18,324 nt of DNA from Sulfurimonas sp. (GTDB lineage: Bacteria; Campylobacterota; Campylobacteria; Campylobacterales; Sulfurimonadaceae). Shown piece after piece: positions 928-15,687 of the stretch. The notes under the pieces were generated by a model. It had not been told where the DNA came from and made no database searches. It saw only the letters and a list, made by a program, of their open reading frames with translations. The translations under genes and the position numbers were made by a program. The stretch lies in assembly GCA_026987995.1 (NCBI GenBank), contig JALSMC010000119.1, forward strand, positions 1-18,324, in the 5' to 3' direction. Numbering within the stretch: the stretch's first letter is position 1; each line of letters begins with the position of its first letter.

Positions 928-3900
928 TTAATAATTTATACGTGCATCATATACTTCAAGAGGTGCTGTAAAAGGAATAGCTGTTAAACTATCAAACTCT
1001 GTAGCCCAATCAAGTTTTCCTATACCAAAGTTAACAGAATTAGTGAGTGTGTCTTTATTTGTATCATAAAAAGTAACAAATTCACCTAATGCTGTAGCAT
1101 CAAAGAAGTATCCATATCCTCCAGATTGTGGATCTGTATAGTCACCGTAAACAACAGCGCCAAGACCTTGATCTAAAACAAATGCTCTGTGATAACCTCT
1201 TGATACATCATCATTTAAAAATACAATGATTTTATCTGCATCATATGTGTAGTAGCCGGCATCACTCTGAATAGTTGAACCATCAGCATAATCAACTATA
1301 CTCACACTACCATTCATATCTGTCGTATTTGCTACTTCAAAAACATAACCTTGATTAGAAGCTAACTCATTATTAGCAAAGGGTGTTCTATTTGTTACAT
1401 AATCAGTTAAATATCCATCTATTGTAGTATATGTTGCTCCCGTTGGATTATAAACTGTATCTCCATAAGATTCTAACTTTGCATCTACATTGTAGAATGC
1501 TGTTTTATAAACTACTCCATTCGTAAAGATAGTTGTATTGAGTTCACTATTTGCTGTAGCTGCATTTAGTTGTGCTAATATTTTCGCTTTCATAATAAGT
1601 GTACCATTTACATCAACTACATTCATTGTATTGTTTGTATCAATAGTGTATGCAATTGTGAATGCTGGACTACTTGTATCTGCACTAAAAGTTGTAGCAT
1701 TAGCATCACGAACGAGTGCTTGCTCTTCATAACTAGTAGTACCAAATGTTGCACTGTTTACTTCTAATCTATAAGTAGCATTAACATCTGTTGATGTTGT
1801 ATTCGTATCTACTGTGTATTGAGCTACTAAGTTATAAACATTTCCTTCGCATGTAAGATCTAAACTATCCCCAAAGCGACCAAAACTACATGTTACAGAA
1901 GTTGTTCCACGGAAAAGTCCATTTACATCACTTGTATCACTGTTTTTTGTAAATGTAATATTTCCATCTACATCAGCATAAGGATTGCTTAGGTTACTGT
2001 CATATATAGTACCAATAGCAAGGCTATAGCTACCGTATTCAAGCTCACCAGACTCATTTGTATCAAAAAAGCCATCACTTGTTAAACGCAGGAGCATATC
2101 TGTTGTAGATGAAGTTGTATTATCATCAAACCACTCTCCAGCGAGAGAGATTGTTGTGTTTGTATCTGCTACCGTTGTAGTAGTGCTACTAGATAGTGCA
2201 AAATCTAACAATCGTAAAGCTGCTACTTCATTAAATGTAGGAAAATCATCTTGTGAAAAATCAGGACTAGCTAGACGATGTTCTCCAAAATAAACTTCAC
2301 CGTTATATATAGCAATGAGGTTTGCTGGGTAGTCTCCAAAGAGTGCTTCGTTTCCAGTACTAGGATAAAACTCTATTGCTAAGTCACTTGTGTTTGGAAG
2401 TGTTACTACACCCCATGATCCAACAACATCACTTACATTGTTCTCAAAGACTAAATCTCCACCATCACCATCACTGAATGTAGTAACATTTGTATCTGCA
2501 AGTTGTACATCTAAGTTAATACCTTTATAGTTACCAGTCGCATCCCAAGTCCCTGCTACAAAAAGTCCAGAGTTAACAAAACCTTCAAGTGTTGTAAATG
2601 TAGCACCTGTACTATAGTTTGTTGCTTTCCAGTTAAGCACATATGTTTCAAGGAACTTTGAACTTACGATATATGCAAGATCTCCATCTACAAATGAAAT
2701 ATTAGTGTCAGATGGAATATTTAGATTGATTTCAGTTTCAACTGCACTTCCAGGAAGAGCTACAACTGCATCTAAACGTTTTTGTGAACCATTTCCAAGA
2801 GTTATAATTCCCGTTGTAGGATCAACTGCATACGATGATGTATTATCAGGTTCCCAAACGCCATTACTACTAAGTACTAAGTCACTGTTAGTATTATTAT
2901 TATCTAACCATGAAGAAGTATTCGTATCATAATAATACTCTCGAATCACTCCATTATCTAGTAGAATTTTTAGAGCTTTTACATTTCCATTTTCATCACT
3001 ATCAACAGCATAAACAGTTGTTATATTGACAAATGTATCAGTTCCTGTTGTCGCTGCTATTGCTGCTGCTATAGCCGCATCACGAATTGCTTCTGCCTGA
3101 ACTCTAATAGCTGCTATCTCTGCTGCTTTTGCTTCTAAGACCACAAACTGCTCTTCAAGTATAACAAGTGCTGCTGCTGCATCAGACTGTGCATTGAGGG
3201 CTGCGGTTTCATTTGCATCTACGACTGCAGTTCCCGCTGCAATCTTTGCATCACTGATAATAGTCATTTGGTTTCCAATGATATTAGCTGCTGTATCAGC
3301 AAGACTAAAAGAAGCATTTGCATCATCTGCAGCTTGTTGTGCATCTGGATATATTGTTACGATTGCTCCGATTGCATCAAGGTCATCTATAACTGCTGTA
3401 GCATTAAAATCATTAAAACGAGTCGTTACATTACTATTTAGTGTTATGAGTTCACTCTCTATTAGTTGAATTCTCGCAATCTTAGCATCAAGTACTATTT
3501 GTGCTGCTGCTATAAGCTCTATATTTGCTTTTTCTCCATAAATAGCCTCAAGAATAGTTTCTAAACTTGTAGAAGATGCTTGAATCTCATCTTTGTAAAG
3601 TATAGACTGGTTCACATCTGTAGAGTTTGTATCTACTAAAGATTGTAAAGATGCAAGTGTAGCTGTTGTTGTATCATAAATACTTTGGGCTGCTGTAAGA
3701 TTTGCATCGATAACTGAGCTAGTAATACCTACTACAGCAATTTTTGTGCTATTGAGGTCACTATTCATCTGTGTCACAATAAACTTCGCTATTTCGTTGT
3801 TTGTGTTTACCTGTGCTTGTACTATTAGTGCCTCTGCATCTGCTGCTGCTTGTGCTGCTGCTGCTTGTGCTGCTGCTAAATCTACTGCTGCTTTGGCATC

Positions 3901-5214
3901 TGCTTCTGCTTGTGCTGCTGCTGCTGCTACTAGTTCTGCTTCTAATTTTTCAGCTAAAGCTTGAGCTGCTGCTGCTGCTGCTTCTGCCTCTCTCTGTGCT
4001 GCTTCTGCCGCAATGAGTTTTTCTTGTGCTGCTGCTGCCTCTGCCGCTAATGCTGCTGCTTCATCTGCTGCCGCTTTTTCTGCTGCTGCCTGTGCTGCTG
4101 CTGCCTCTGCCGCTAAGTATGCTTCATACTTTACTCTATCATCTGCTGCGGCTACTGCTGCTGCTTTAGCTGCTGCTAATTCTGCATCCGCTACTGCTTG
4201 TGCTGCTTGTGCAGCTGCTACTGCTGCTTCTTTTTCTTGTTGTGCTTGTTGTAGAACTTCAATATTAGCAATTTGAGCATCGCTTAAAGTATCTGCATTT
4301 GTTTTTGCATCTACTGCTGCTGCTTTTAAAGTAGTTTCTGTAGTAGTATTTACTTTCGTAATTGCTGCATCTAGATTTGCTGTTGCTTCAGATTGTGTTC
4401 CACTTGTTATAGCACTCTCTGCACTATCTGCATCTCTTACTGCACTCTCTGCTGCACTAACCGCTACAACTTTTGATGCAACACGTGCTGAAGGATTAGC
4501 TGCATAAACTGCATCTGCTGCAGTTTTTGTCGCTGCAGACACTGTTGCTGCATCCAAAGTGACTACTGCAGTCACTCCATCAAAATTTGCTGCTATTGCA
4601 TCAAAAACAGAATTCATTGTCTGATTTGTATCTGTGTTTGCATCTGCTCCTGCAAGTGTCACTGCTGCTGAGTGTACAAGAACTTGAAGTTGTGTCTGTT
4701 TTGCAAGAACTGCTTGTGCATTTGCACTCACTTCATTGTATGGATCAAATGAAGTAAGGTTTACATCTACATTTGTTAGCCCCATTGCTGCTTTAACATT
4801 TGCTTCTGCATCTTCTGCTGACTTTCCACTCTCTACTAAAGACTGAATAGCAGATGTAAGAGGTGTAACAACTGATGATCCCGCTGGAGCTTTTAATGTA
4901 CCAGTAAATGCTTGACCTGTTGAGTTATCGATTCCACCTACTAAAAGTAATGGTCCTGTTTGTGTTGTCTCTGCAATGCTAAACTTACCTAAAGCATCGG
5001 TAACTGCACTCGGCTCACCTGCATCACAAGTACCGCTTTTATCTACATCTATACAAACTGTAGAACCAACTAAGATACCATCTATACCTATACCACTATA
5101 TGCATTGCTTACTGCGTTTGCAATGGAATTGCTATCACTACTACATCCTGTAATAGTCAGTAAAGCTGCCGTTGTAATAGAAAGTAATATATTTTTACTA
5201 TTAAAATACTGCAT
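928..5214 (-). CDS. Very large lipoprotein with alanine-rich coiled coil and beta-rich C-terminal modules
   Basis: About 1428 residues. The N terminus is a lipoprotein signal peptide ending in the lipobox ITGC (lipidated Cys24), so the protein should be anchored to a membrane and face the periplasm or cell surface. Residues about 40-90 hold an acidic DVDKSGTCDAGEP loop followed by a short beta module, similar in style to calcium-binding or carboxypeptidase-regulatory-like folds. Residues about 320-470 are almost only Ala, Glu, Lys, Gln and Asp, predicted as a long TolA-like helical coiled coil; helical sequence continues to about 720. The rest is Asn/Thr/Asp/Gly-rich and probably beta-stranded. 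A motif, TGATFTTLEG near 869-878, recurs as TGATYTTIDG near 1258-1267, which suggests module duplication. I prefer the ATG at 5212-5214 over that at 5218-5220, because AAGGAG at 5221-5226 lies 6 bases from the former and touches the latter. The family is not recognised; an adhesin or cell-envelope spacer role is a guess. Confidence 0.8.
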   Translation of the reverse strand: MQYFNSKNILLSITTAALLTITGCSSDSNSIANAVSNAYSGIGIDGILVGSTVCIDVDKSGTCDAGEPSAVTDALGKFSIAETTQTGPLLLVGGIDNSTGQAFTGTLKAPAGSSVVTPLTSAIQSLVESGKSAEDAEANVKAAMGLTNVDVNLTSFDPYNEVSANAQAVLAKQTQLQVLVHSAAVTLAGADANTDTNQTMNSVFDAIAANFDGVTAVVTLDAATVSAATKTAADAVYAANPSARVASKVVAVSAAESAVRDADSAESAITSGTQSEATANLDAAITKVNTTTETTLKAAAVDAKTNADTLSDAQIANIEVLQQAQQEKEAAVAAAQAAQAVADAELAAAKAAAVAAADDRVKYEAYLAAEAAAAQAAAEKAAADEAAALAAEAAAAQEKLIAAEAAQREAEAAAAAAQALAEKLEAELVAAAAAQAEADAKAAVDLAAAQAAAAQAAADAEALIVQAQVNTNNEIAKFIVTQMNSDLNSTKIAVVGITSSVIDANLTAAQSIYDTTTATLASLQSLVDTNSTDVNQSILYKDEIQASSTSLETILEAIYGEKANIELIAAAQIVLDAKIARIQLIESELITLNSNVTTRFNDFNATAVIDDLDAIGAIVTIYPDAQQAADDANASFSLADTAANIIGNQMTIISDAKIAAGTAVVDANETAALNAQSDAAAALVILEEQFVVLEAKAAEIAAIRVQAEAIRDAAIAAAIAATTGTDTFVNITTVYAVDSDENGNVKALKILLDNGVIREYYYDTNTSSWLDNNNTNSDLVLSSNGVWEPDNTSSYAVDPTTGIITLGNGSQKRLDAVVALPGSAVETEINLNIPSDTNISFVDGDLAYIVSSKFLETYVLNWKATNYSTGATFTTLEGFVNSGLFVAGTWDATGNYKGINLDVQLADTNVTTFSDGDGGDLVFENNVSDVVGSWGVVTLPNTSDLAIEFYPSTGNEALFGDYPANLIAIYNGEVYFGEHRLASPDFSQDDFPTFNEVAALRLLDFALSSSTTTTVADTNTTISLAGEWFDDNTTSSTTDMLLRLTSDGFFDTNESGELEYGSYSLAIGTIYDSNLSNPYADVDGNITFTKNSDTSDVNGLFRGTTSVTCSFGRFGDSLDLTCEGNVYNLVAQYTVDTNTTSTDVNATYRLEVNSATFGTTSYEEQALVRDANATTFSADTSSPAFTIAYTIDTNNTMNVVDVNGTLIMKAKILAQLNAATANSELNTTIFTNGVVYKTAFYNVDAKLESYGDTVYNPTGATYTTIDGYLTDYVTNRTPFANNELASNQGYVFEVANTTDMNGSVSIVDYADGSTIQSDAGYYTYDADKIIVFLNDDVSRGYHRAFVLDQGLGAVVYGDYTDPQSGGYGYFFDATALGEFVTFYDTNKDTLTNSVNFGIGKLDWATEFDSLTAIPFTAPLEVYDARINY
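3795..4330. repeat. Imperfect GCT/GCA trinucleotide-rich tract inside the lipoprotein gene
   Basis: The plus strand shows many runs of TGCTGCTGC and related triplets; these are Ala codons (GCA, and also GCG or GCT) read on the minus strand. The tract encodes the Ala-rich coiled coil. The repetition is codon-level and imperfect, not a perfect microsatellite, and it also creates long open frames on the plus strand that I do not regard as genes. Confidence 0.7.
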
Positions 5215-5349
5215 TATCATCTCCTTTTAATTAAAGCTATCATTATTTAGATATCCTTCTACTCATATCTTATCTATATTTAAATTAAAAAAACTAAATT
5301 TAATATTTTGAGAGTGAAGTGAATTATTGAATGGAGTTAGTTGTAAGAA

Positions 5350-5878: not shown

Positions 5879-6418
5879 TTGTTGATTTATTTAGTTATAG
5901 CACTCAAGAGCGAAGCTCAGGCCTTTGTAGACAGGTATAAACTTAAAAAAACAAAACTTGGTGATTTTACTCTCTATTTTGACGAGAAGAGATCTCTTAT
6001 AGTAAGTGGTATTGGTATTGTAAACGCAAGAGAAGCTACACAAACACTTATAAACTATTATGACATTAGTGATGATGATATATATATCAATGTTGGCATT
6101 TGTGGTGCAAGTAAAGAGCATAAAATTGGCTCACTTTTAGAGATAGGGGAGGTAGTGCACGATGGCATAGACCACCCCTTTATAAAGAATAAAAAAAGTA
6201 TAGTCTGTGTTAATGAAGCTATGAGTGAAAACAAATATGAACTAGTAGATATGGAATCTTATGGTTTTTTAGATGCTGTTTCTCATTCTCCTGCGATCAA
6301 AAACTTTCATATACTAAAAGTAGTCAGTGACCATTTTGAGCCAGAGAAAGTAACAAAAGAGTTTACAAAATCACTTATCTTTAAAGCGATTAATGATATA
6401 AATAAGTTAATAAACTAA
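5879..6418 (+). CDS. MTA/SAH nucleosidase-like protein of the nucleoside phosphorylase superfamily
   Basis: This 179-residue protein resembles a shortened 5'-methylthioadenosine/S-adenosylhomocysteine nucleosidase (family members are usually near 230 residues). Three residues expected in the active site are in place: Glu12 in ALKSEAQAF, the ribose-binding pair Met125-Glu126 in VDMESYGF, and Asp151 in VVSDHFE. The glycine-containing strands SGIGIVNA and NVGICGA also fit the fold. The missing length lies mainly in the middle and C-terminal parts, so substrate choice is uncertain; it may cleave another nucleoside. The start is TTG at 5879 (a second TTG at 5882 is equally possible), following AAGGG. 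It ends 12 bases before the NagZ-amidase gene and is probably co-transcribed with it. Whether it belongs functionally to wall recycling cannot be judged from sequence. Confidence 0.75.
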   Translation: MLIYLVIALKSEAQAFVDRYKLKKTKLGDFTLYFDEKRSLIVSGIGIVNAREATQTLINYYDISDDDIYINVGICGASKEHKIGSLLEIGEVVHDGIDHPFIKNKKSIVCVNEAMSENKYELVDMESYGFLDAVSHSPAIKNFHILKVVSDHFEPEKVTKEFTKSLIFKAINDINKLIN

Positions 6419-6430
6419 GAGGAATACTAT

Positions 6431-8089
6431 TTGAAAATATTTTTGCTACTTTTACAGACGCTTTTACTTTTAAGTGCAGTACCCAAAGAAGATGTCCAAC
6501 TTAAAAAGATGATTGGTAGAATGCTCATCGTAGGATTTGATGAGCAAACTATTTTTTATGACTCACAAATTGTAAAAGATATACACAATTACGATTTGGG
6601 TGGTGTTATTCTCTTTGACCGCTTTTATGATGACAGAACTCGTGTAAAAAACATACTCAATCCACATCAACTAAAGTATCTCACAAGTGACTTGCAAAAG
6701 TACTCTAAAAAACCTCTTTTTATCGCTATAGACCAAGAAGGTGGCAAAGTTGCTAGACTCAAACATAAGTATGGCTTTATCAAAATACCCTCTGCATATT
6801 CAGTTTCTAAAATGAAGACAGAAGAAGCAAAAAAAATCTATGATGCTCAATCTCAAATGCTCAAAGACTTAGGTATTAACTGTAACTTTTCTCCTGTAGT
6901 TGATTTGAGTGTAAACCCAAAAAACAGGGTGATAGTAGGGCTTGAGCGTTCGTATGGCAAAGATAGTCAAGATGTTGTAAAGTATGCATCTTTAGTGATA
7001 GATTCACAAAAGGAGAAAAACATTATGAGTGTTTTAAAGCACTTTCCAGGACATGGTTCCTCTCTTGGGGATTCGCATAAAGGTTTTGTTGACATTAGTA
7101 AATCGTGGAGTAAAAAAGAGTTAGAGCCCTACAAAACACTCATACAACTAAACAGAGCTGATGCCATAATGACAGCACATGTTTTTAACTCACACCTAGA
7201 TACAAAGTACCCAGCCACTCTTTCATATAAAACAAATACACAACTGCTTCGTAAAGAGCTTCACTTTAAAGGGCTTATCATCAGTGATGATATGCAGATG
7301 AAAGCAATCTCTTCACACTATACGCTTAAAGAGAGTACAACTTTAGCTATAAACGCGGGAGTCGATATACTTCTCTTTGGAAATCAACTCGCCCATAATA
7401 GTGTAGAGGAGATAGTAAACACTATATATAAGCAGGTAAAAAGTGGGAATATAGCCTTAGAAAAGATTAAAACTGCAAACAGACGAATAGAAGACATGCA
7501 CACAAAAAATGCAATCATACAAAAGCCCATCATATTTACAGATAAACGCAGACAACTTACCAAAGAGTACATCAAAACTCATTATGGACTGGATGTTAAA
7601 AATATAAATATTATTCCTCAAAATATAGTCGTTCACTGGACTGCTATGATGGACTTTGAGAAGTCTTTTGAGCGTTTAAACCCTGAACTTCTTTTTAGTG
7701 ATAGAAAAGATATAGTTAAAGCTTCAGCACTTAATGTCTCAGCTCACTTTCTTATAGACCGCAAAGGGACTATTTATCAACTAATGCCAGATAATATAAT
7801 GGCTCGCCATGTCATAGGCTTAAACTATTCAAGTATAGGCATAGAAAATGTTGGTGGTAAAGATAATACAAACGAGGACTTAAGCCCTGCCCAACTTCAA
7901 GCAAATATAAACCTTATAAATCACCTTAAAAGTAAGTACCCAAGCATAAAAAATGTTCTTGGGCATTACGAGTATAGAGAGTATGAAAACACAGAATTTT
8001 GGTTAGAAAAAGATGAGGGCTACAGAACCAAGAAAAAAGACCCAGGAAAGGAGTTTATGTCTAAACTCAGAAAAGCTCTTGATAAATAG
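6431..8089 (+). CDS. nagZ: Exported beta-N-acetylglucosaminidase (NagZ, GH3) fused to an N-acetylmuramoyl-L-alanine amidase
   Basis: A 552-residue two-domain enzyme behind a hydrophobic N-terminal signal (residues 1-18). Residues about 25-350 are a NagZ-type GH3 domain: DQEGG near 101, KHFPGHG at 203-209, the Asp214-Ser-His216 pair that serves as general acid/base in NagZ enzymes, and SDDM at 285-288 holding the nucleophile. Residues about 385-550 form an Amidase_2 (AmpD-like) zinc domain: ligands His402 (VVHWT), His512 (GHYEY) and Asp537 (KDPG), with Glu472 (SIGIE) as the expected catalytic residue. Together they would remove GlcNAc and the stem peptide from muropeptides. The signal suggests periplasmic action, unlike the cytoplasmic NagZ and AmpD of E. 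coli. TTG start with AGAGGA upstream; the stop overlaps the symporter start. I am sure of the domains, less so of the export. Confidence 0.92.
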   Translation: MKIFLLLLQTLLLLSAVPKEDVQLKKMIGRMLIVGFDEQTIFYDSQIVKDIHNYDLGGVILFDRFYDDRTRVKNILNPHQLKYLTSDLQKYSKKPLFIAIDQEGGKVARLKHKYGFIKIPSAYSVSKMKTEEAKKIYDAQSQMLKDLGINCNFSPVVDLSVNPKNRVIVGLERSYGKDSQDVVKYASLVIDSQKEKNIMSVLKHFPGHGSSLGDSHKGFVDISKSWSKKELEPYKTLIQLNRADAIMTAHVFNSHLDTKYPATLSYKTNTQLLRKELHFKGLIISDDMQMKAISSHYTLKESTTLAINAGVDILLFGNQLAHNSVEEIVNTIYKQVKSGNIALEKIKTANRRIEDMHTKNAIIQKPIIFTDKRRQLTKEYIKTHYGLDVKNINIIPQNIVVHWTAMMDFEKSFERLNPELLFSDRKDIVKASALNVSAHFLIDRKGTIYQLMPDNIMARHVIGLNYSSIGIENVGGKDNTNEDLSPAQLQANINLINHLKSKYPSIKNVLGHYEYREYENTEFWLEKDEGYRTKKKDPGKEFMSKLRKALDK

Positions 8090-9560
8090 TAGCTTCTCCT
8101 CACTTGACTGGTCTATATTTTTAGCCTATTTTGCTGTTTTAGCTTTTAGTTCTTACTGGTTTTCTCGTAAAAAAATCAACTCAAGTAGAGAGTACTTTAC
8201 AGCTACAAACGCCATGCCAACTCTTGCAGTGGCTATCTCTATCTTAGCAACTTCTCAGTCAGCCGCTACTTTTTTAGGTGTACCAGAATTTTCATATGCA
8301 CATAACTTCACACTCATAGGTTTTTACTTCTCATCTTTACTCGCTGTAATCTTTGTTGCAAAGTACTTTGTACCTAGGTTTTATGAGATAAAGGCTATCA
8401 CAGTTTATGAACTCTTGGGTACTCGTTATGGTGAGAGTGCAAAAAAACAAGCAGGTGTAATGTTTCTTCTGGGTCGTATCATGGCGAGTGGAGCTAGACT
8501 CTACATCGCTGCACTCGCTATAAGTATGATACTTTTTCTTGATATTAGCCTTGTTCATATGATGGTTTCTATCTCTATTTTACTTCTTGGGGCTTTGGCT
8601 TATACTTACTTTGGTGGGGTCAAGTCGGTTATTTTGAGTGATGTTATTCAAGCCATTACTTATGTGAGTGCTGGTCTGCTAGTTGTGTTTTATCTTTACA
8701 GTTCACTTGACAGCTCTAGTATTATAAATATTTTACAAGACAATAATAAACTTACATTTATAGATACAAGTCTTGATGGAAAATTTAGTATCATAGGACT
8801 ACTGAGCGGTTGGTTACTGCTAAATATCGCAGCATTTGGGCTTGACCAAGATATGACGCAAAGAGTTCTCTCTTGTAAAGACAAAAATGAAGCGAGTCGC
8901 TCACTCATTCTCTCCATACTTTTTACTATCCCTATCGTTTTACTTTTTTTAAGTATTGGGGCTTTACTTTTTGTACATTATGAAAGTACAGAGGTTCTCC
9001 AGCATTTTGAAGGTGAAAAAATCACTATCTTTATGTACTACATCTTAAACGAGATGCCAGAGGGAATCCGTGGTTTTGTAACGGTCGGAGCTATTGCCGC
9101 GGCACTTTCAAGCACAAACTCCGTCCTAGGAGCTCTCTCTTCTGTAGCCATTGAAGATTTATACCGACCCTACAAACTAAACAAAGATGCCAATACAGAT
9201 GAGTCACACTTTATAAAAACCTCAAGAAATGCAGTTTTACTCTTTGCTCTTTTACTCTTTGGTATGGCACTACTCTCCTACTTCTGGCAAAGATATGCCG
9301 AACTCTCACTCATAGGTTTCGCACTTGGAGTGATGGCATTTGCATACACAGGACTGCTCGGTGTTTTCTTCTCAGCAATATTTACCGCACGAGGTACTGC
9401 TAAACTCGTCCCATATGCTCTTTTAGGGGGTTTCTTAACAGTTCTAGTCCTACAACCCTACACCTTTGGAATAAGTTTAGGCTTTGCATGGCAGATAACT
9501 TTTGGGACTATGGTATCATTTGCGATAATGCAACTAAATTCAAGGGGCAAAAATGAATAA
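8079..9560 (+). CDS. Sodium:solute symporter (SSS/SLC5 family), candidate muropeptide-sugar importer
   Basis: About 493 residues with some 13 hydrophobic segments. Family hallmarks include the first helix LDWSIFLAYFAV, the conserved AISILATSQSAATFLG segment in the unwound helix 1-2 region, and GGVKSVILSDVIQAI in the middle. Such proteins sit in the inner membrane and use a sodium gradient to import sugars, sialic acid, amino acids or other solutes. The substrate cannot be read from the sequence. Its place between the NagZ-amidase and anmK suggests anhydroMurNAc, MurNAc or GlcNAc. The frame is open from an ATG at 8013, but that would overlap the previous gene by 77 bases. I prefer the TTG at 8079, which puts the start just before the first helix and overlaps the previous stop by 11 bases; no clear ribosome site precedes it, so coupling is likely. 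It overlaps anmK by 8 bases. Confidence 0.85.
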   Translation: MINSSFSSLDWSIFLAYFAVLAFSSYWFSRKKINSSREYFTATNAMPTLAVAISILATSQSAATFLGVPEFSYAHNFTLIGFYFSSLLAVIFVAKYFVPRFYEIKAITVYELLGTRYGESAKKQAGVMFLLGRIMASGARLYIAALAISMILFLDISLVHMMVSISILLLGALAYTYFGGVKSVILSDVIQAITYVSAGLLVVFYLYSSLDSSSIINILQDNNKLTFIDTSLDGKFSIIGLLSGWLLLNIAAFGLDQDMTQRVLSCKDKNEASRSLILSILFTIPIVLLFLSIGALLFVHYESTEVLQHFEGEKITIFMYYILNEMPEGIRGFVTVGAIAAALSSTNSVLGALSSVAIEDLYRPYKLNKDANTDESHFIKTSRNAVLLFALLLFGMALLSYFWQRYAELSLIGFALGVMAFAYTGLLGVFFSAIFTARGTAKLVPYALLGGFLTVLVLQPYTFGISLGFAWQITFGTMVSFAIMQLNSRGKNE

Positions 9561-10641
9561 AAAAGAACTTTATATTGGTGTCATGAGTGGTACGAGTTTA
9601 GATGGAGTTGATATTGCTCTATGTGAGATAGATAGTAGCACTTGTTCTCTGACACATTATAATGAATACCCTTTCCCCACACAACTCAAAGAGTCTATTT
9701 TAAATGCCATTTCTACTCCTCTTACACTGCAAAGCATGGGTGAGCTTGACCATAAACTCGGAGCTCTTTTTGCTGAGTGTATCAATGAGTTTATACTTAC
9801 TCACAAACTCAATACTCAAAGCATAAACGCCATCGGACTTCACGGACAAACACTGTGGCATGCTCCTGATGGGGGTACTCCTTTTTCTATGCAGTTGGGC
9901 GATGCAAATATTGTTGCTTCAAGAACTGCCATACAGACCATAGCTGATTTTCGTCGTATGGATATAGCTAATGGTGGACAAGGAGCTCCTTTTGCCCCTG
10001 CATTTCATAAGTTTCTTTTTGCACACCTAGAGGAAAAAGTGGCTGTTTTAAACATAGGGGGTATGGCAAACATCACTATACTTGATGAGGAAGTCCTTGG
10101 TTGGGACTCTGGCTGTGGTAATGTTTTGCTTGACTACTGGATGAGTCAAACGCAGCTCAAACCGTATGATAAAGATGGAGAATTTGCTTGTATTGGCACA
10201 ATACATAAAGAACTTTTAGCACTGATGCTGAGTGATGCCTACTTTAAAAAAGAGGCTCCAAAAAGCACTGGAAGAGAGTATTTTAATGGACATTGGCTTG
10301 AAGAGAAGCTCTCCTCTTTTTCAAATATTAGCGAACAAGATGTACAAAGAACACTCTTAGAACTCACTGCAAAAAGCATCTCAAATGATTTAATAAATAG
10401 AGATACTAAAAAACTTGTAGTTTGTGGTGGTGGTGCTAAAAATATTTTTCTTATGCAAAGACTCAAAGAACTAGGCTGTTGTAAGATAAAAAGCAGTGAT
10501 GACTTTGGGGTAAATAGTAATGCACTTGAGGCGATGGCATTTGCTTGGTTTGCTTACAAACGCAGCCATGGAGAAGTAGTAAACCTCTGCTCTATCACAG
10601 GTGCGAAAAAGCCTTCACAACTCGGAGCTATTTATGGATAA
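9553..10641 (+). CDS. anmK: Anhydro-N-acetylmuramic acid kinase
   Basis: A 362-residue cytoplasmic kinase of usual length. It opens with the AnmK signature GVMSGTSLDGVDIAL, followed by GLHGQTLWHAP (residues about 96-106), ADFRRMDIANGGQGAPF (about 132-148) and LNIGGMANIT. Asp185 in WDSGCGN matches the catalytic Asp of the family motif DTGPGN, with Ser and Cys replacing Thr and Pro. AnmK opens the 1,6-anhydro ring and phosphorylates the sugar, giving MurNAc-6-phosphate. AAGGGG at 9542-9547 is a good ribosome site for the ATG at 9553. The gene overlaps both neighbours by 8 bases. In this organism the product must meet either an etherase (MurQ) or a phosphatase (MupP) before the downstream AmgK can act; neither is in the window. 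Confidence 0.95.
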   Translation: MNKKELYIGVMSGTSLDGVDIALCEIDSSTCSLTHYNEYPFPTQLKESILNAISTPLTLQSMGELDHKLGALFAECINEFILTHKLNTQSINAIGLHGQTLWHAPDGGTPFSMQLGDANIVASRTAIQTIADFRRMDIANGGQGAPFAPAFHKFLFAHLEEKVAVLNIGGMANITILDEEVLGWDSGCGNVLLDYWMSQTQLKPYDKDGEFACIGTIHKELLALMLSDAYFKKEAPKSTGREYFNGHWLEEKLSSFSNISEQDVQRTLLELTAKSISNDLINRDTKKLVVCGGGAKNIFLMQRLKELGCCKIKSSDDFGVNSNALEAMAFAWFAYKRSHGEVVNLCSITGAKKPSQLGAIYG

Positions 10642-11584
10642 ACTGCTAAGCTGGATAAGAACAACCCCTTACAAACATCATACACTCACAGTTGCAAGTG
10701 CTGATGCAAGTTTTCGTAAGTACTATCGTTTAACACATCAAGAGCAAACTGTTATAGTGATGGATAGCTCTTTAGAGCTAGACTCTCTTACTCCTTTTTT
10801 AGATGTAACAACTAGACTCTTAAACGCAGGTGTTAAAGCTCCTCATATTTTAGAACAAAACACAAAAGATGGTTTTTTAATTTTAGAAGACTTTGGGAAT
10901 GTACAACTCTTAGATGTTTTAAATACTACTAACTTTAAAATGAACTATAAAAAAAGTATACACGAGATACTTAAAATGCAAAATGCAAATACAGATAATC
11001 TTCCACTTTATGATAAAGAATTTTTGCACTTTGAGATGAACTTAATGCAAGAGTGGTTTTTAGAAAAAAAGCTAAATATTGTACTCAGCAGTCAAGAGTC
11101 TATGGTACTCTCAAAAACTCTAAATATAATTTCAGCAGTAGTTTTACAACAGCCTCAAGATGTTTTTGTACATCGTGACTTTCACTCTCGAAATATTATG
11201 CTCACTCCTAAAAGTGAGATAGGAGTCATCGACTATCAAGATGCTATGTGCGGAGCTATTACTTACGACTTGGTTTCACTGCTTAAAGATTGCTACATCG
11301 CATTTGATAGAGTAGAGATAGAATCTTTAGCACTTTACTTTCGAGATAAAAAAGGCCTAGATGTCAGCGATAAAGTGTTTTTAAAGTGGTTTGATTTCAT
11401 GGGGCTACAACGCCACATAAAAGTACTTGGTATCTTCTCTCGTTTGTCAATAAGAGATGCTAAAAATGGCTACTTAAAAGACATACCTCTTGTTCTAAAG
11501 TATACTATTGAGACTGCATTACGTTATGAAGAAACCAAAGAGTTAGCTCTTTTTTTACAACAATTTAACAAAAACACCCTATAA
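10634..11584 (+). CDS. amgK: MurNAc/GlcNAc anomeric kinase AmgK
   Basis: About 316 residues, an aminoglycoside-phosphotransferase-fold kinase. The AmgK-like ADASFRKYYRLT comes near residue 23. The catalytic loop HRDFHSRN begins at His180 with catalytic Asp182, and the metal-binding Asp200 is in GVIDYQDA, followed by the family-typical TYDLVSLLKDCYI. AmgK phosphorylates MurNAc (and GlcNAc) at C1, giving MurNAc-alpha-1-phosphate for MurU. The frame is open from an ATG at 10601, but I chose the ATG at 10634 because GGAG at 10624-10627 lies 6 bases upstream and it overlaps anmK by only 8 bases. murU is two genes downstream, which strongly supports this call over a generic aminoglycoside kinase. 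An aminoglycoside substrate is unlikely given these motifs and neighbours. Confidence 0.93.
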   Translation: MDKLLSWIRTTPYKHHTLTVASADASFRKYYRLTHQEQTVIVMDSSLELDSLTPFLDVTTRLLNAGVKAPHILEQNTKDGFLILEDFGNVQLLDVLNTTNFKMNYKKSIHEILKMQNANTDNLPLYDKEFLHFEMNLMQEWFLEKKLNIVLSSQESMVLSKTLNIISAVVLQQPQDVFVHRDFHSRNIMLTPKSEIGVIDYQDAMCGAITYDLVSLLKDCYIAFDRVEIESLALYFRDKKGLDVSDKVFLKWFDFMGLQRHIKVLGIFSRLSIRDAKNGYLKDIPLVLKYTIETALRYEETKELALFLQQFNKNTL

Positions 11585-11612
11585 TATTACATACTCAAAT
11601 TAAAGAAGTTTT

Positions 11613-13052
11613 ATGCAGTCAAAATACAAAATCATTCTCACTGTTCTCTCTTTGCTTTTATTGCTCTCTGTTGGAATCTCACTAGCAAACTATGAAGTTT
11701 CTATGCGAGCAACAAAGGAACAACTTAAAACTCAGTCCCTTCCACTCTCAGTTGACAACATCTACACAGAGATTCAAAAACAGATAATAGAGCCCTATTT
11801 AGTCTCTTCTATGATGGCTAATGACACCTTTGTTTTGGAATGGCTTCAAGAGGAAGAACACTCTGTTATAAAAATTCAAAACTATTTAGAGAGTATAAAA
11901 AATAGGTATGGGATGTTGGGTGCTTTTTTAGTCTCAGATACAACAAAAAACTACTATTCACAAGATGGTTTTGTAGAAAAAGTTACTCCTGCAAAGAAGG
12001 ACAACAAGTGGTACTTTGAGTTTAAGAAGTCCGTGAAACAGAGTGAAATCAACATCGACTTAAACAAGCACCTAAACAAGGACCTTATCATGTTTATAAA
12101 CTTTAAAATGTTTGATAGGGACTTTCACTACTTAGGGGCAACTGGAGTAGCTATAGAAATCTCTTACATCAAAAAAATGCTTATGATTTTTAAAGATAAG
12201 TATAAACTGCATGTGAGCTTTTTAGATGCAAAAGGAAACTATGTCTTACTAGATGGTGTTGATAAAGAAGAAAACTACCAAAATATAAATGAAATTCCTG
12301 AGATTCTTCCATTTAAAGAAAAAATTCTCTCATCACAAAATCATCTCATTGAGTACACAAAAGATGGCGATAAATACATTCTCAACACTAAGTATATCCC
12401 AGAGCTTGATGCACACCTGCTTGTAGCAGCAAAACTTGATGACTTTACACACCAAACCAAGAGAGCTTTTTACCTCAACAGTGTTATCTCTTTACTTTTA
12501 GCACTTATCATTGCCGCTGTTCTTATAAATATCATCCGTAACTACAACAAAAAGCTTGAAAAACTTGCTGATTTTGATGAGCTTACAGAAATTCCAAATA
12601 GAAGAAATTTTCATAATCGTTTTGCCTATCTTTTAGAGCTTCAAAAGCGGACAAAACAGGACTTATGTCTGCTCTATATTGATCTGGATAACTTCAAACA
12701 AATCAACGATACACTTGGGCATGATGTAGGCGATAAAGTGCTTCAGGAATTTGCACTTATATTGCAAAAAAATGTAAGAGCAAGTGATCTTTATGCAAGA
12801 TGGGGTGGAGAAGAGTTTATAGTGGCATTTGTCAACACTTCTTTGGAGGATGGACTACATCTAGCTGAAAAGATTAGACTTGCAGTAGAGCACTCTGTTA
12901 GAATCACAAATGTACTACCTACAAATATAACCATTAGTTCTGGACTCACACTTGTAACTCCTCAAGACACGATTAACAGTGTCATTTCACGGGCAGATGA
13001 AGCTATGTATGAAGCAAAGTCTACTGGAAAAAATAAAATCTGTACTCTCTAA
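11613..13052 (+). CDS. Membrane-bound diguanylate cyclase with periplasmic Cache-like sensor
   Basis: A 479-residue inner-membrane protein: one helix at about 7-27, a periplasmic region of about 255 residues with the look of a double Cache ligand-binding domain (paired segments GMLGAFLVS and YKLHVSFLDAKGNYV), a second helix at about 287-309, then a GGDEF domain. The active-site motif is intact, GGEEF at 398-402, and DLDNFKQINDTLGHDVGD matches the nucleotide-binding region. An inhibitory site RASD lies at 389-392, exactly five residues before GGEEF, so product feedback by c-di-GMP is expected. It should make c-di-GMP in response to a periplasmic ligand. It sits 28 bases after amgK and directly abuts murU, so it is probably part of the operon. 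The ligand is unknown; a cell-wall fragment is a hypothesis from context only. Confidence 0.9.
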   Translation: MQSKYKIILTVLSLLLLLSVGISLANYEVSMRATKEQLKTQSLPLSVDNIYTEIQKQIIEPYLVSSMMANDTFVLEWLQEEEHSVIKIQNYLESIKNRYGMLGAFLVSDTTKNYYSQDGFVEKVTPAKKDNKWYFEFKKSVKQSEINIDLNKHLNKDLIMFINFKMFDRDFHYLGATGVAIEISYIKKMLMIFKDKYKLHVSFLDAKGNYVLLDGVDKEENYQNINEIPEILPFKEKILSSQNHLIEYTKDGDKYILNTKYIPELDAHLLVAAKLDDFTHQTKRAFYLNSVISLLLALIIAAVLINIIRNYNKKLEKLADFDELTEIPNRRNFHNRFAYLLELQKRTKQDLCLLYIDLDNFKQINDTLGHDVGDKVLQEFALILQKNVRASDLYARWGGEEFIVAFVNTSLEDGLHLAEKIRLAVEHSVRITNVLPTNITISSGLTLVTPQDTINSVISRADEAMYEAKSTGKNKICTL

Positions 13053-13712
13053 ATGAAGGCAATGATACTAGCAGCCGGTCGAGGTGAGAGAATGCGACCA
13101 CTTACAGACTCCCTTCCAAAACCGCTTTTAAAAGTGAGAGGTAAAACTCTCATCGAGTGGCATATAGAAAAACTTGTGCGAAATGGTTTTAAAGAGATAG
13201 TCATAAACATCGCCCACTTAGGATATAAAATTCCTGAGCACTTAGGTGATGGAACCAGATATGGTGTGAAGCTACTCTACTCAGATGAACAAAATGAAGG
13301 AGCTTTAGAATCTGCTGGTGGCATTAAAAAAGCCCTTACTCTTTTAGGTCATGAGCCTTTTTTAGTTGTCAATGGGGATATCTTTTGTGAGTATGAATTT
13401 GACTCTAGTTTTGATTTCAAAGAAAAAAAAGCACATCTAATTTTAGTACCAAACCCTGAACATAATTTAGAAGGAGATTTTGGACTTTTAGGGGATGTAG
13501 TTTTAAATGAAGCTGATGAAATGTTCACCTTCTCAGGTATAGGGTACTATACTCATGAGTTTTTTGATACTATAAACATTCAAAAGAAATCACTTGCACC
13601 ACTTTTAAGAAAAAGCATAGACAAAAAAGAGATAAGTGGCGAAGTATTTACAAAAATGTGGCACGATATCGGCACACCTAGAAGATTAAAAGAGATAAAC
13701 AATGAAAACTAA
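13053..13712 (+). CDS. murU: N-acetylmuramate alpha-1-phosphate uridylyltransferase
   Basis: A 219-residue sugar-nucleotide transferase. The N-terminal pyrophosphorylase motif LAAGRGERMRPLTD with PKPLL lies at residues 6-25, NGDI at 107-110 supplies a metal-binding Asp, and GDFGLLGD, FSGIG and the C-terminal WHDIGTPRRL are as in MurU. MurU joins MurNAc-alpha-1-phosphate to UTP, giving UDP-MurNAc directly and bypassing GlmU and MurA/MurB, the last-named pair being the fosfomycin-sensitive route. The length and the absence of an acyltransferase domain separate it from GlmU. The ATG follows the diguanylate cyclase stop with no gap and no clear ribosome site, so translation is probably coupled. 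It overlaps the next gene by 11 bases. Without amgK nearby the call would be a generic nucleotidyltransferase; together they are persuasive. Confidence 0.92.
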   Translation: MKAMILAAGRGERMRPLTDSLPKPLLKVRGKTLIEWHIEKLVRNGFKEIVINIAHLGYKIPEHLGDGTRYGVKLLYSDEQNEGALESAGGIKKALTLLGHEPFLVVNGDIFCEYEFDSSFDFKEKKAHLILVPNPEHNLEGDFGLLGDVVLNEADEMFTFSGIGYYTHEFFDTINIQKKSLAPLLRKSIDKKEISGEVFTKMWHDIGTPRRLKEINNEN

Positions 13713-14673
13713 ACTACTACTCATACTCCTAACCCTAAGCACTTTACTTCAAGCGAAGTATACTAACTGTACTTTTAAAAACAAAGACTACTCAGATGTC
13801 TGTACACAAGCTGTAAAAAGTGGTGTTTCTTACAAATATGCTAACGAGTTTCTCACGTCGTACTTCAAAACACAAAAATTTGATGAAGTGAGTTGGACAT
13901 ACCTACAGCCAAGTAAAATAAAACACCATCAAGCACAAGAGAAAAAAGCAAATAATGTACTTGTCAAATACATACCACAGATGATAGAAAACCTGCATGA
14001 GTACAAAGAAGTATATGATTATGTAGAAAAAAAGTATGGGGTAAATCGTGAGATAATCGCTGCTATTCTTCTAAAAGAGACAAAATTAGGAAAGATTAAA
14101 CCAACACATGATGCTTTTATAGTTTTTAACACTATGGTCGTACGAACAAAACCAAACTCTACGAGAGAAAAATGGCTACTTAAAATGGGTAAAACTAATA
14201 TGGCATCCATCATAAGTCACTGCTATAAAAAAGGGGTAGTACCTGAACAATGCAATCTCCCCGCTTCATATGCAGGAGCAGTAGGTATCCCTCAGTTTAT
14301 GCCAAACAGTTTTATCTATGCTAAGTCCTACAAGGGAGAAGTTGCTGACCTTACAGATATGCAAGATGCCATCGTATCAGCTGCAAACTTTTTGCATCAA
14401 AAGGCTGCGTTTAACAAGCTGATAGATTGGGATACAATGCCAGATATTCCTCAAGTAGAAGCACAATGGTACCAGTACGATTATGCTACAAAAAATGCTT
14501 CTTTTGTGTACGAAGTAAATAAAAGTGGTAAAGTCTATAACTGTTTTACAAAAAACAAACCTAAGCTAGAGAAAATGAGAGAGTACACAAAAAAGATTAT
14601 GCGTTATAACAACTCATCAAACTATGGCGTTGGGGTTATGAGACTCGCTTATGAGGCTCACTACTATCTTTAA
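13702..14673 (+). CDS. mltB: MltB-type lytic murein transglycosylase
   Basis: A 323-residue exported enzyme with a signal peptide (about residues 1-18, ending LLQA). It has the family B lytic transglycosylase core: the catalytic Glu126 in LLKETKLG and the substrate-groove motif YAGAVGIPQFMPNSF near 193-207. These enzymes cut the glycan chain between MurNAc and GlcNAc, leaving 1,6-anhydroMurNAc ends, the very substrate of the operon's AnmK. No lipobox follows the signal peptide, so it is probably soluble in the periplasm. There are four Cys residues (two near 23-34, and others near 175-185 and 280), which could form disulfides. The ATG at 13702 lies 11 bases before the murU stop. It is the last gene of the operon; a convergent gene starts 9 bases beyond. 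Confidence 0.9.
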   Translation: MKTKLLLILLTLSTLLQAKYTNCTFKNKDYSDVCTQAVKSGVSYKYANEFLTSYFKTQKFDEVSWTYLQPSKIKHHQAQEKKANNVLVKYIPQMIENLHEYKEVYDYVEKKYGVNREIIAAILLKETKLGKIKPTHDAFIVFNTMVVRTKPNSTREKWLLKMGKTNMASIISHCYKKGVVPEQCNLPASYAGAVGIPQFMPNSFIYAKSYKGEVADLTDMQDAIVSAANFLHQKAAFNKLIDWDTMPDIPQVEAQWYQYDYATKNASFVYEVNKSGKVYNCFTKNKPKLEKMREYTKKIMRYNNSSNYGVGVMRLAYEAHYYL

Positions 14674-14674
14674 C

Positions 14675-14691
14675 GATGCTCTTTAAGCATC
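14675..14691. terminator. Short hairpin between convergent genes, possible weak terminator
   Basis: GATGCT and AGCATC form a perfect 6-base-pair stem around the loop CTTTA, just after the transglycosylase stop and overlapping the end of the convergent GAF gene. No T-run follows on either strand, so termination by this hairpin alone is doubtful. Confidence 0.3.
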
Positions 14692-15168
14692 TAAGAGAAG
14701 GACAAGTTCTAAACTACCACTTATGTAATTTGCTAAAAATGTAAGTATCTCTAAATCTTTTTCATCAAAATCAAATCTTGTCTTATTTAGTAGTTGCATG
14801 ACACCCATTACCTCGCGTTTAGAGTTAAATATCGGGATAGTAAGCATATTTTTTGTGATAAAACCACTTTTTTTATCTATGTTTGGTAAAAATCTTGAGT
14901 CTTCATAAGGAGCATTTACAATTTGCCCCTCTTTTTTTGCATACGTATCGCCAACTATACCCGAGTCTAATCCTATTACTATTCTACCTATGCCGTTGTT
15001 TAGTTTTGTCCAGAGCATATTTGCTTCGTTATCTACGATGAAGACTGAACAACGTTCTGCATGTGAGAGTCTTTTTGCTTCTTCACCTATCAGATCAAGA
15101 GCATTATCCATATTATCGAGTGATGCTAGCTTCTTACCAAACAAGGCTATTTCGTTAAATTTTTTCAC
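14683..15168 (-). CDS. Stand-alone GAF-domain protein (second of a tandem pair)
   Basis: A 161-residue protein made of one GAF domain and no effector domain. Recognisable segments are CSVFIVDNE, the IVGDTYAKKEGQIVNAPYEDSRF-type stretch (about 72-95), DKKSGFITKNMLTIPIF and GVMQLLNK. GAF domains bind small ligands such as cyclic nucleotides or sense redox state; here the NK...F...D part of the NKFDE motif is kept but the final Glu is not. The protein is probably cytoplasmic. The start is GTG at 15166-15168, abutting the stop of the paralogous upstream gene, so the two are co-translated. The two proteins share their segment order and many residues, which points to local gene duplication. Its partner and signal are unknown. 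Confidence 0.85.
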   Translation of the reverse strand: MKKFNEIALFGKKLASLDNMDNALDLIGEEAKRLSHAERCSVFIVDNEANMLWTKLNNGIGRIVIGLDSGIVGDTYAKKEGQIVNAPYEDSRFLPNIDKKSGFITKNMLTIPIFNSKREVMGVMQLLNKTRFDFDEKDLEILTFLANYISGSLELVLLLDA

Positions 15169-15687
15169 TTATGCTTCTCGTTTTATCTGTTCTTTCTCAC
15201 TGAGGTAAACATTTGTAAGTTCTAAAAATCCACTAATGTAGTGTGCAAAAAATATCATGAACTTTTTATCTTCTTCATCAAAATCATCGCTTTTGTTGAT
15301 TAATTGTAATACTCCAAGGATATGGCGTTTTGAACTGAAAATAGGGGCTGTGACAACATTTTTTGTCTCAAAACCTGTCTCTTTGTCTACATCCGACAAA
15401 AAGTCTGGATGAGAGTAAGGATCATTTGTCATTATAGGTTTCTTTTCTCTAAGTGTTACTCCGACAAGTCCTTTATCTGATGGCACGATTATCTTCTCAA
15501 CACCATCGGCAATAGTTGTCCATAACTCTTGATTTTTGGCATCGTTGATAAAGATAGAACAACGTTGTGCCCCTATGACACTTTTAGCATAAACAGAGAT
15601 AAGCGGTAAACCTTCAGAGAGTGTTTTTTTCTCTAGCAACTCTCTTCCGAAGTTTGCGAGTGAATGGTAAGTGTTAGCATATTTCAT
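15169..15687 (-). CDS. Stand-alone GAF-domain protein (first of a tandem pair)
   Basis: A 172-residue paralogue of the following gene. It shows CSIFINDAKNQELWTTIADGV, a KGLVGVTLREKKPIMTNDPY stretch, DKETGFETKNVVTAPIF and GVLQLINK, which together define a GAF domain covering nearly the whole protein. The C-terminal tail, about ten residues, is charged (SEKEQIKREA). No enzymatic domain is attached, so it probably works with another protein. The ATG at 15685-15687 has an AAGGAA ribosome site, and a TATAAT box lies in the divergent region shared with the ArsC-like gene. It differs from the second copy mainly at the N terminus, and the loop DDFDEED is shorter than RFDFDEKD in the other. Confidence 0.87.
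   Translation of the reverse strand: MKYANTYHSLANFGRELLEKKTLSEGLPLISVYAKSVIGAQRCSIFINDAKNQELWTTIADGVEKIIVPSDKGLVGVTLREKKPIMTNDPYSHPDFLSDVDKETGFETKNVVTAPIFSSKRHILGVLQLINKSDDFDEEDKKFMIFFAHYISGFLELTNVYLSEKEQIKREA

Follow-up and report, generated by a model that had tools for sequence, protein, structure and literature searches.

Gene content and conservation of the locus

The window analysed here, an 18,324-nucleotide stretch of Sulfurimonas sp. DNA (contig C119 of a genome that is 81.6% complete and comprises 334 contigs), carries a plus-strand run of eight genes at positions 5879–14673. They encode, in order, a nucleosidase-like protein, a fusion of the glycosidase NagZ with an Amidase_2 domain, an SSS-family symporter, AnmK, an AmgK-like kinase, a diguanylate cyclase, MurU and an MltB-like lytic transglycosylase (Table 1). 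We consider it likely that the locus serves a trim-before-import form of peptidoglycan recycling, in which the symporter would import free sugar and AnmK, AmgK and MurU would make UDP-N-acetylmuramic acid (UDP-MurNAc) from it.

Direct reading of the open reading frames and junctions bore out an earlier note on this DNA, which had described the run with its gaps and overlaps. The nucleosidase-like gene is followed after a 12-base gap by the NagZ–amidase gene, which overlaps the symporter gene by 11 bases; the symporter gene overlaps anmK, and anmK overlaps amgK, by 8 bases each; 28 bases separate amgK from the diguanylate cyclase gene, which abuts murU (gap 0), and murU overlaps the mltB-like gene by 11 bases. 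TTG 8079 is the likely start of the symporter gene because several relatives begin MNSAF or similar there. Two terminator-like sites on the plus strand both lay within genes and none at a junction, and the seven found on both strands, compared with 5.6 expected, were at chance level. We infer that the eight genes are co-transcribed.

Table 1 Features of the eight-gene locus in the window, with domain calls made using Pfam and NCBIfam models and their curated cut-offs.
Feature	Positions	Strand	Basis
Nucleosidase-like protein, 179 aa, TTG start	5879..6418	+	weak MTA/SAH-nucleosidase matches
Exported NagZ (GH3)-Amidase_2 fusion, 552 residues	6431..8089	+	Glyco_hydro_3 and Amidase_2 in one reading frame
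SSS-family symporter, predicted Na+-coupled (anhydro)MurNAc importer, likely TTG start	8079..9560	+	PF00474; relative of 5nv9 (SiaT)
AnmK	9553..10641	+	PF03702 443 bits; NF007139 456.5 bits, cut-off 367
AmgK-like anomeric MurNAc (GlcNAc) kinase, APH family, ATG start	10634..11584	+	NF045759 235 bits, cut-off 550
dCache-GGDEF membrane diguanylate cyclase, non-core insertion between amgK and murU	11613..13052	+	GGDEF
MurU, MurNAc alpha-1-phosphate uridylyltransferase	13053..13712	+	NF045761 292.7 bits, cut-off 250
MltB-like exported lytic transglycosylase	13702..14673	+	SLT_2 114 bits; hydrophobic N-terminus

Related loci were collected by an SSS-alignment scan of named species genomes, which gave 352 relatives. 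The 80 best were retained; these were named Sulfurimonas, Sulfurovum, Helicobacteraceae or other Campylobacterota, and one just "bacterium". The comparison of gene order in other Campylobacterota that the earlier note had proposed placed a hydrolase gene directly before the symporter gene in 75 of the 80 (the fusion in 34, NagZ in 29 and an amidase in 12; another gene in four and a contig edge in one). In 71 of the 75 the symporter start lay −17 to +2 bases from the hydrolase end, with overlaps being upper bounds, as the first possible start codon was used. The symporter gene adjoins anmK in 44 of 68 loci, and amgK adjoins murU in 46 of the 50 loci holding both. The unbroken order hydrolase–symporter–anmK–amgK–murU was present in 30 of the 80 loci, the rest being interrupted by contig ends or insertions. 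In 43 loci the sequence extends 6 kb or more downstream; amgK and murU were found in 39 of these and mltB in 36; anmK was found in 39 under the overlap rule and in 42 after adding L093, L128 and L145 from maps, leaving L153 without it. A quick tree of 79 rows indicated that the amidase-type loci form one group and that the fused and NagZ-only labels changed about six times each, of which the well-supported branches force only one change. Conservation of the slot before the symporter despite its changing content is thus the strongest indication that the genes share a function. The gene order exceeds chance because it is found again in many related loci, and the Sulfurimonas/Sulfurovum locus is conserved and functionally coherent.

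A survey of 150 Campylobacterota genomes, with 14 control genomes, found AnmK in seven, MurU above its cut-off in seven and the symporter at 556 bits or more in seven, and these were the same seven genomes (hereafter carriers): six of the eight sampled members of the genus, the window genome included, and G139 from another family. Symporter matches of any strength were found in 19 of the 150 genomes, the best after the carriers scoring 148 bits, and the two remaining genus members (G015 and G027) had none of AnmK, above-cut-off MurU or the symporter. That the genes stand together by chance or shared ancestry, with no common pathway, is hardly credible: the loci are related and other genes separate the symporter gene from anmK in 24 of 68 of them, yet the slot filled by three hydrolase architectures keeps its place beside the symporter, and AnmK, MurU and the symporter are all-or-none across the 150 genomes.

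The symporter–anmK junction seems to accept insertions, since L036 (9297-12007, in G139) carries genes for an Mrr-type restriction endonuclease and a metallophosphoesterase there and L114 carries DNA methylase and HNH genes. A VanY-like carboxypeptidase gene follows the symporter gene in L117 (8510-9253), an MltC-like SLT transglycosylase gene overlaps anmK in L101 (15159-16325), and anmK consists of two overlapping frames in one Sulfurimonas metagenome-assembled genome (L142, 11439-12537), reflecting a frameshift or an assembly error.

Putatively exported hydrolases and the symporter

The fusion protein comprises a signal-peptide-like segment (residues ~1–18), a glycoside hydrolase family 3 (GH3) domain (32–354) and an amidase domain (396–539); the window gene product scored 215.8 bits for Glyco_hydro_3 and 73.3 bits for Amidase_2. 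D214/H216, D286/D287, H402, H512 and D537 were invariant in all 32 aligned fusions, and we take H402, H512 and D537 to be candidate metal ligands of the amidase. A GH3 profile built from the 32 fusions was nearest to the lipoprotein YbbD/NagZ (210 bits), followed by other GH3 enzymes (191, 179 and 169 bits) and by entries named beta-hexosaminidase (116–140 bits), which presumably include the Gram-negative NagZ enzymes. The text of PMC5061867 places YbbD/NagZ of Bacillus subtilis outside the cell, and an Asp-His dyad, whose counterpart here is the invariant D214/H216, is described for the Rhodothermus marinus enzyme RmNag3 in PMC6987092.

Export was gauged by an ad hoc measure, a best 10-residue Kyte-Doolittle mean of at least 2.2 within the first 45 residues, with proteins cut by contig ends excluded. 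By this measure a hydrophobic N-terminus was present in all 34 fusions, 29 of 31 NagZ proteins, 15 of 16 separate amidases and 36 of 38 MltB proteins, and in none of the proteins of the cytoplasmic arm (AnmK 0/62, AmgK 0/52, MurU 0/47). Three NagZ or amidase proteins fell under the threshold: those of L042 and L163 are signal-like by eye, and the third, in L114, has its NagZ frame fused with a nucleosidase-like frame. Seven of the 16 separate amidases contain a TAC motif, which we read as lipobox-like. The fusion protein matched in 54 of the surveyed genomes and was fused in five; G126 and G139 encode the two parts separately, the amidase with its own export-type N-terminus, and most of the others matched the NagZ part alone and three mainly the amidase part. 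A single NagZ-like match and a single Amidase_2 protein occur in each of the seven carriers, and Amidase_2 was found in one of six non-carriers of the same family. Judged by their N-termini, NagZ and amidase appear to be exported, as the earlier note had supposed for the window proteins, whether they are fused or separate.

No match to the AmpG model (TIGR00901, E 1e-3) was found in the seven carriers, a search in which YejABEF, Opp, phosphotransferase system (PTS) and other MFS importers were not included. Weak AmpG matches occurred in 18 of the 150 genomes, none of them a carrier, and none of the 150 passed the cut-off; the model is an imperfect detector, matching five and passing two of the 14 controls. 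An AmpG elsewhere in the genome carrying the flux, which the earlier note had named as evidence that would count against its proposal, was rejected on this result. The ordinary AmgK–MurU pathway with cytosolic processing, in which export signals have been misread here and a divergent MFS or ABC importer takes the place of AmpG, has some points in its favour: YejBEF–YepA stands in for AmpG in Agrobacterium (PMC9790009), the importer search covered AmpG only and gave those 18 weak matches, and export was called by an ad hoc measure of hydrophobicity. We regard it as very improbable in view of the hydrophobic N-termini in 78 of the 81 NagZ, amidase and fusion proteins, the lack of even a weak AmpG match in carriers and the lack of a second Amidase_2 protein in any of them.

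Trimming in the periplasm followed by import of the free sugar is probably the best reading, as the earlier note had it, because NagZ and amidase are of export type and present as single copies, AmpG has no match and the symporter is linked to the hydrolases. The related suggestion that the symporter stands where AmpG would act held in part, in that carriers lack an AmpG match and the symporter gene is linked to hydrolase genes; the two are not equivalent function for function, since AmpG moves disaccharide-peptides and the symporter would move a monosaccharide.

The symporter scored 88 bits with PF00474 (cut-off 22.8) and 152.8 bits with TIGR00813, under the cut-off of 184. Its nearest solved relative was 5nv9, the Proteus sialic-acid symporter SiaT (E 8.7e-45), described in PMC5931594 as a transporter of a carboxylated N-acetyl sugar; the roles of the Na2 and Na3 sites are taken from the same text. 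In a sequence alignment of 42 symporters, equivalents of the Na2 residues Ser342 and Ser343 were kept in 41 and 42, respectively; at Na3, Asp182 and Ser346 were kept and Ser345 was replaced by Asn in 41. The carboxylate-binding Ser60 and Thr63 of SiaT were kept in all 42. Two arginines of transmembrane helix 3 (TM3), at positions 133 and 140 of the window protein, were invariant in the 42 and absent in the distant SSS protein of L041; Arg133 lies three residues before and Arg140 four residues after the position of SiaT Arg135, one turn to either side. We propose that Arg133 and Arg140 may bind the lactyl carboxylate of MurNAc, given an alignment that may be one turn off, and that the substrate would be MurNAc or anhydroMurNAc. 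L171, a 3.2 kb Helicobacteraceae contig, carries a gene for the exo-N-acetylmuramidase NamZ (2-1153; both Pfam halves present) on the same strand as its symporter gene (1558-3129) and 404 bases before the first possible symporter start; by the Pfam name, the NamZ family releases MurNAc.

It is quite unlikely that the symporter instead imports free N-acetylglucosamine (GlcNAc) or another product such as a peptide, with (anhydro)MurNAc entering by another carrier. NagZ frees one GlcNAc per fragment, the AmgK models are named MurNAc/GlcNAc kinases, and Gln82 and Arg135 of the SiaT pocket have no in-register counterparts; set against this, in many loci the symporter gene overlaps both anmK and the NagZ or amidase gene, the symporter co-occurs with the MurNAc-specific steps AnmK and MurU, its nearest solved relative transports an N-acetyl sugar with a carboxylate, and one related symporter gene stands near NamZ.

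Cytoplasmic arm, apparently absent branches and accessory genes

In the pathway that we propose, the MltB-like lytic transglycosylase, with others in the cell, would free GlcNAc-anhydroMurNAc fragments in the periplasm, exported NagZ would take off GlcNAc, and the Amidase_2 domain, whether fused or in a separate exported protein, would strip the peptide to leave anhydroMurNAc. The symporter would carry the free sugar inward with sodium and AnmK would convert it to MurNAc 6-phosphate (MurNAc-6P); a phosphatase that is not among the operon genes would then remove the 6-phosphate, and AmgK followed by MurU would yield UDP-MurNAc, bypassing MurA and MurB. The order of events and the phosphatase step are our reconstruction.

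The AmgK-like kinase scored 72.5 bits with the APH model, and its best NCBIfam model was that of AmgK; its sole solved relative, 3csv, has a chain named aminoglycoside-phosphotransferase. MurU was nearest to the solved chains 4y7t and 8hhd, of which the second was deposited under the name MurU. The MltB-like protein scored 67 bits with TIGR02282, under the cut-off of 281. In Pseudomonas, according to PMC5371407, AnmK makes MurNAc-6P and MupP then gives MurNAc for AmgK. HAD_2 proteins were searched in nine genomes, and ten (three from the window genome and seven from relatives) were scored with the MupP model. None fitted: nine scored 57–121 bits and the SerB-type protein did not match, against a cut-off of 359, with the power of the model for distant MupP proteins not gauged. 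In the window genome, two HAD proteins scored 85.5 and 60.8 bits and the third was SerB (240 bits over 144); the 121-bit protein was better matched by phosphoglycolate phosphatase (272 bits, above the cut-off of that model). The MurNAc-6P phosphatase step, on which the earlier note is silent, is missing from the operon, and with neither MurQ nor a MupP fit the earlier description of an unbroken operon leading to UDP-MurNAc overstated its completeness.

Three ways of filling this gap were considered. A HAD family ("family B", G000:C6:774-1403, beside a ferrochelatase gene) has close copies (at least 62% identity) in the six genus carriers, only a 37% relative in G139, and is missing in the two non-carriers of the same genus; it was downgraded from a dedicated MupP to a candidate because it also occurs in three of four other same-family genomes that are not carriers and has relatives across much of the phylum. 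The idea that related clusters harbour an inserted phosphatase gene was rejected, as none of four HAD queries matched anywhere in the 80 loci; Pfam likewise found no HAD domain in 19 chosen inserted or neighbouring genes. Release of free MurNAc by NamZ, which would make a phosphatase unneeded, was set aside, NamZ matching none of the 150 genomes and, among the loci checked, only L171.

The catabolic route through MurQ was rejected, as none of the 150 genomes passed the cut-off; weak matches in 148 of them look like other SIS-domain proteins. Mpl passed its cut-off in none of 13 genomes, and the weak matches in all 13 are probably other Mur ligases. The cytosolic muropeptide branch seems to be absent in carriers, as far as searched. 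The cluster might also salvage foreign peptidoglycan as a carbon, nitrogen or wall source instead of the cell's own wall, which is unlikely: although exported NagZ and amidase would suit both uses alike, Tannerella feeds on outside fragments and a VanY-like carboxypeptidase or an additional transglycosylase occurs in a few relatives, the pathway leads to UDP-MurNAc, the etherase MurQ was not found above cut-off and Pfam detected no outer-membrane importer among the eight window genes. Foreign salvage and own-wall recycling are not exclusive.

Several points weigh against the trim-before-import reading. For the symporter, Ser60 and Thr63 are also kept in the distant protein of L041 (G050) and so are not specific, SiaT Gln82 and Arg135 are replaced by Phe and Ala, respectively, in all 42 sequences, so the substrate is not proven, and the NamZ–symporter neighbourhood of L171 is a single case in view of the survey result for NamZ. 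For the cytoplasmic arm, AmgK scores under its equivalog cut-off, and AnmK and AmgK are left without a known connecting enzyme. The importer search covered AmpG alone, and the parting of symporter and anmK genes in 24 of 68 loci means that one transcript is not universal. As to distribution, the window genome is incomplete and two of the eight genus members are without the system; the carriers are all related, so their co-occurrence does not represent many independent events; and the cut-off for MurU is strict (none of the 14 controls passes it, while all 150 genomes match at E 1e-3, mostly, it would appear, through weaker nucleotidyltransferases), so that "MurU only in seven" may undercount. 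The fuller proposal of periplasmic dismantling, a new clade of (anhydro)MurNAc symporters marked by the two TM3 arginines, and either a MurNAc-6P phosphatase of a new kind or an AmgK able to do without it, has in our judgement an even chance of holding.

Two of the eight genes, which the earlier note had counted in the operon, are not part of the conserved pathway. The diguanylate cyclase (GGDEF 160 bits; dCache_1 30 bits, under its cut-off of 45) has a counterpart between amgK and murU in only one of the 80 relatives, L094 (17309-18028); the gene is a local insertion, and a role as core regulator was rejected on the same grounds. In most relatives amgK and murU overlap by about 4 bases at this place, and two-component or GGDEF genes occupy other cluster positions in L119, L120 and L143. 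The nucleosidase-like protein scored 32.6 bits with the methylthioadenosine/S-adenosylhomocysteine (MTA/SAH) nucleosidase models, under the cut-off of 161, and had no Pfam match. Its gene lies directly 5′ of NagZ in 22 of the 34 fusion loci (six more being cut by a contig edge) and in eight of the 29 NagZ-only loci, and is linked to the cluster but probably stands outside the sugar pathway. In L114 (4809-6533) the nucleosidase-like frame and NagZ form one reading frame.

Two neighbours lie on the minus strand of the window. Positions 928-5220 encode an alanine-rich protein of 1430 residues that has a lipobox-like N-terminus and matched no Pfam family, and related reading frames occupy the same place in L096 and L120; positions 14683-15687 encode two adjacent, mutually related GAF-domain proteins, which are found beside the operon in several relatives.

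Comparison with known systems

How Gram-negative bacteria that lack AmpG recycle their wall has been only partly answered, by YejBEF–YepA in some Alphaproteobacteria (PMC9790009). The present locus offers a concrete alternative to AmpG and a predicted substrate for a clade of symporters; it also points to a missing phosphatase, for which there are a few HAD candidates to examine (in the incomplete window genome, two HAD_2 proteins other than SerB). If no muropeptide enters the cytoplasm, cytosolic muropeptides would be unusable as an AmpR-type signal. Named species in culture, Sulfurimonas autotrophica and S. paralvinellae among them, carry the locus, which makes it testable. In the open-licence literature we found nothing on peptidoglycan recycling in Sulfurimonas and no description of periplasmic trimming combined with SSS import and AmgK–MurU salvage, though other work could exist; a term search of the available text of a review of prokaryotic SSS transporters (PMC7918813) returned no mention of muramic acid or peptidoglycan.

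The AnmK–MupP–AmgK–MurU pathway of Pseudomonas and Caulobacter shares with this locus the cytoplasmic arm of AnmK, AmgK (here an AmgK-like kinase) and MurU and the apparent lack of MurQ. It differs in that NagZ and amidase are here exported and clustered with an SSS symporter, and that carriers have no AmpG match and no protein fitting MupP or Mpl; in Caulobacter, AmpG is described together with the MurU branch (PMC13046382). The AmpG-less recycling of Agrobacterium through YejBEF–YepA is likewise Gram-negative, but there whole muropeptides are imported and NagZ and AmpD act inside (PMC9790009), whereas trimming here would take place outside.

Trimming by an external NagZ and amidase followed by sugar import has been proposed for Rhodothermus (PMC6987092). 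RmNag3 of R. marinus is a NagZ with a signal peptide, and AmpG and AmpD were not found whereas AnmK is present; unlike the fusion here it bears a beta-lactamase-type domain, and the available part of that paper neither says that it adjoins recycling genes nor names an importer. The MurT–MurK–MurQ operon of Tannerella forsythia likewise includes a dedicated inner-membrane MurNAc importer, but it follows the MurQ route, AmpG is also present and no AnmK is predicted.

Compared with SiaT (5nv9), the symporter shares the Na2 serines and the Na3 residues Asp182 and Ser346, and differs in Phe for Gln82, Ala for Arg135, with Arg133 and Arg140 flanking that position instead, and Asn for Ser345 (41/42). 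In the NagZ–AmiE rescue system of B. subtilis, encoded by the murQRP-amiE-nagZ-ybbC cluster, NagZ and the amidase work outside the membrane, and it is the bare sugar that enters the cell (PMC5061867). As there, the genes here are clustered, and the GH3 part is nearest to YbbD; B. subtilis uses the PTS importer MurP and MurQ catabolism, whereas the present locus has an SSS symporter with AmgK–MurU, an amidase of the Amidase_2 type and no NamZ match in the surveyed genomes. Coupling of exported hydrolases to an SSS symporter and to AmgK–MurU was not found described in the open-licence literature; the parts are known individually, and exported NagZ with amidase has its precedent in B. subtilis.

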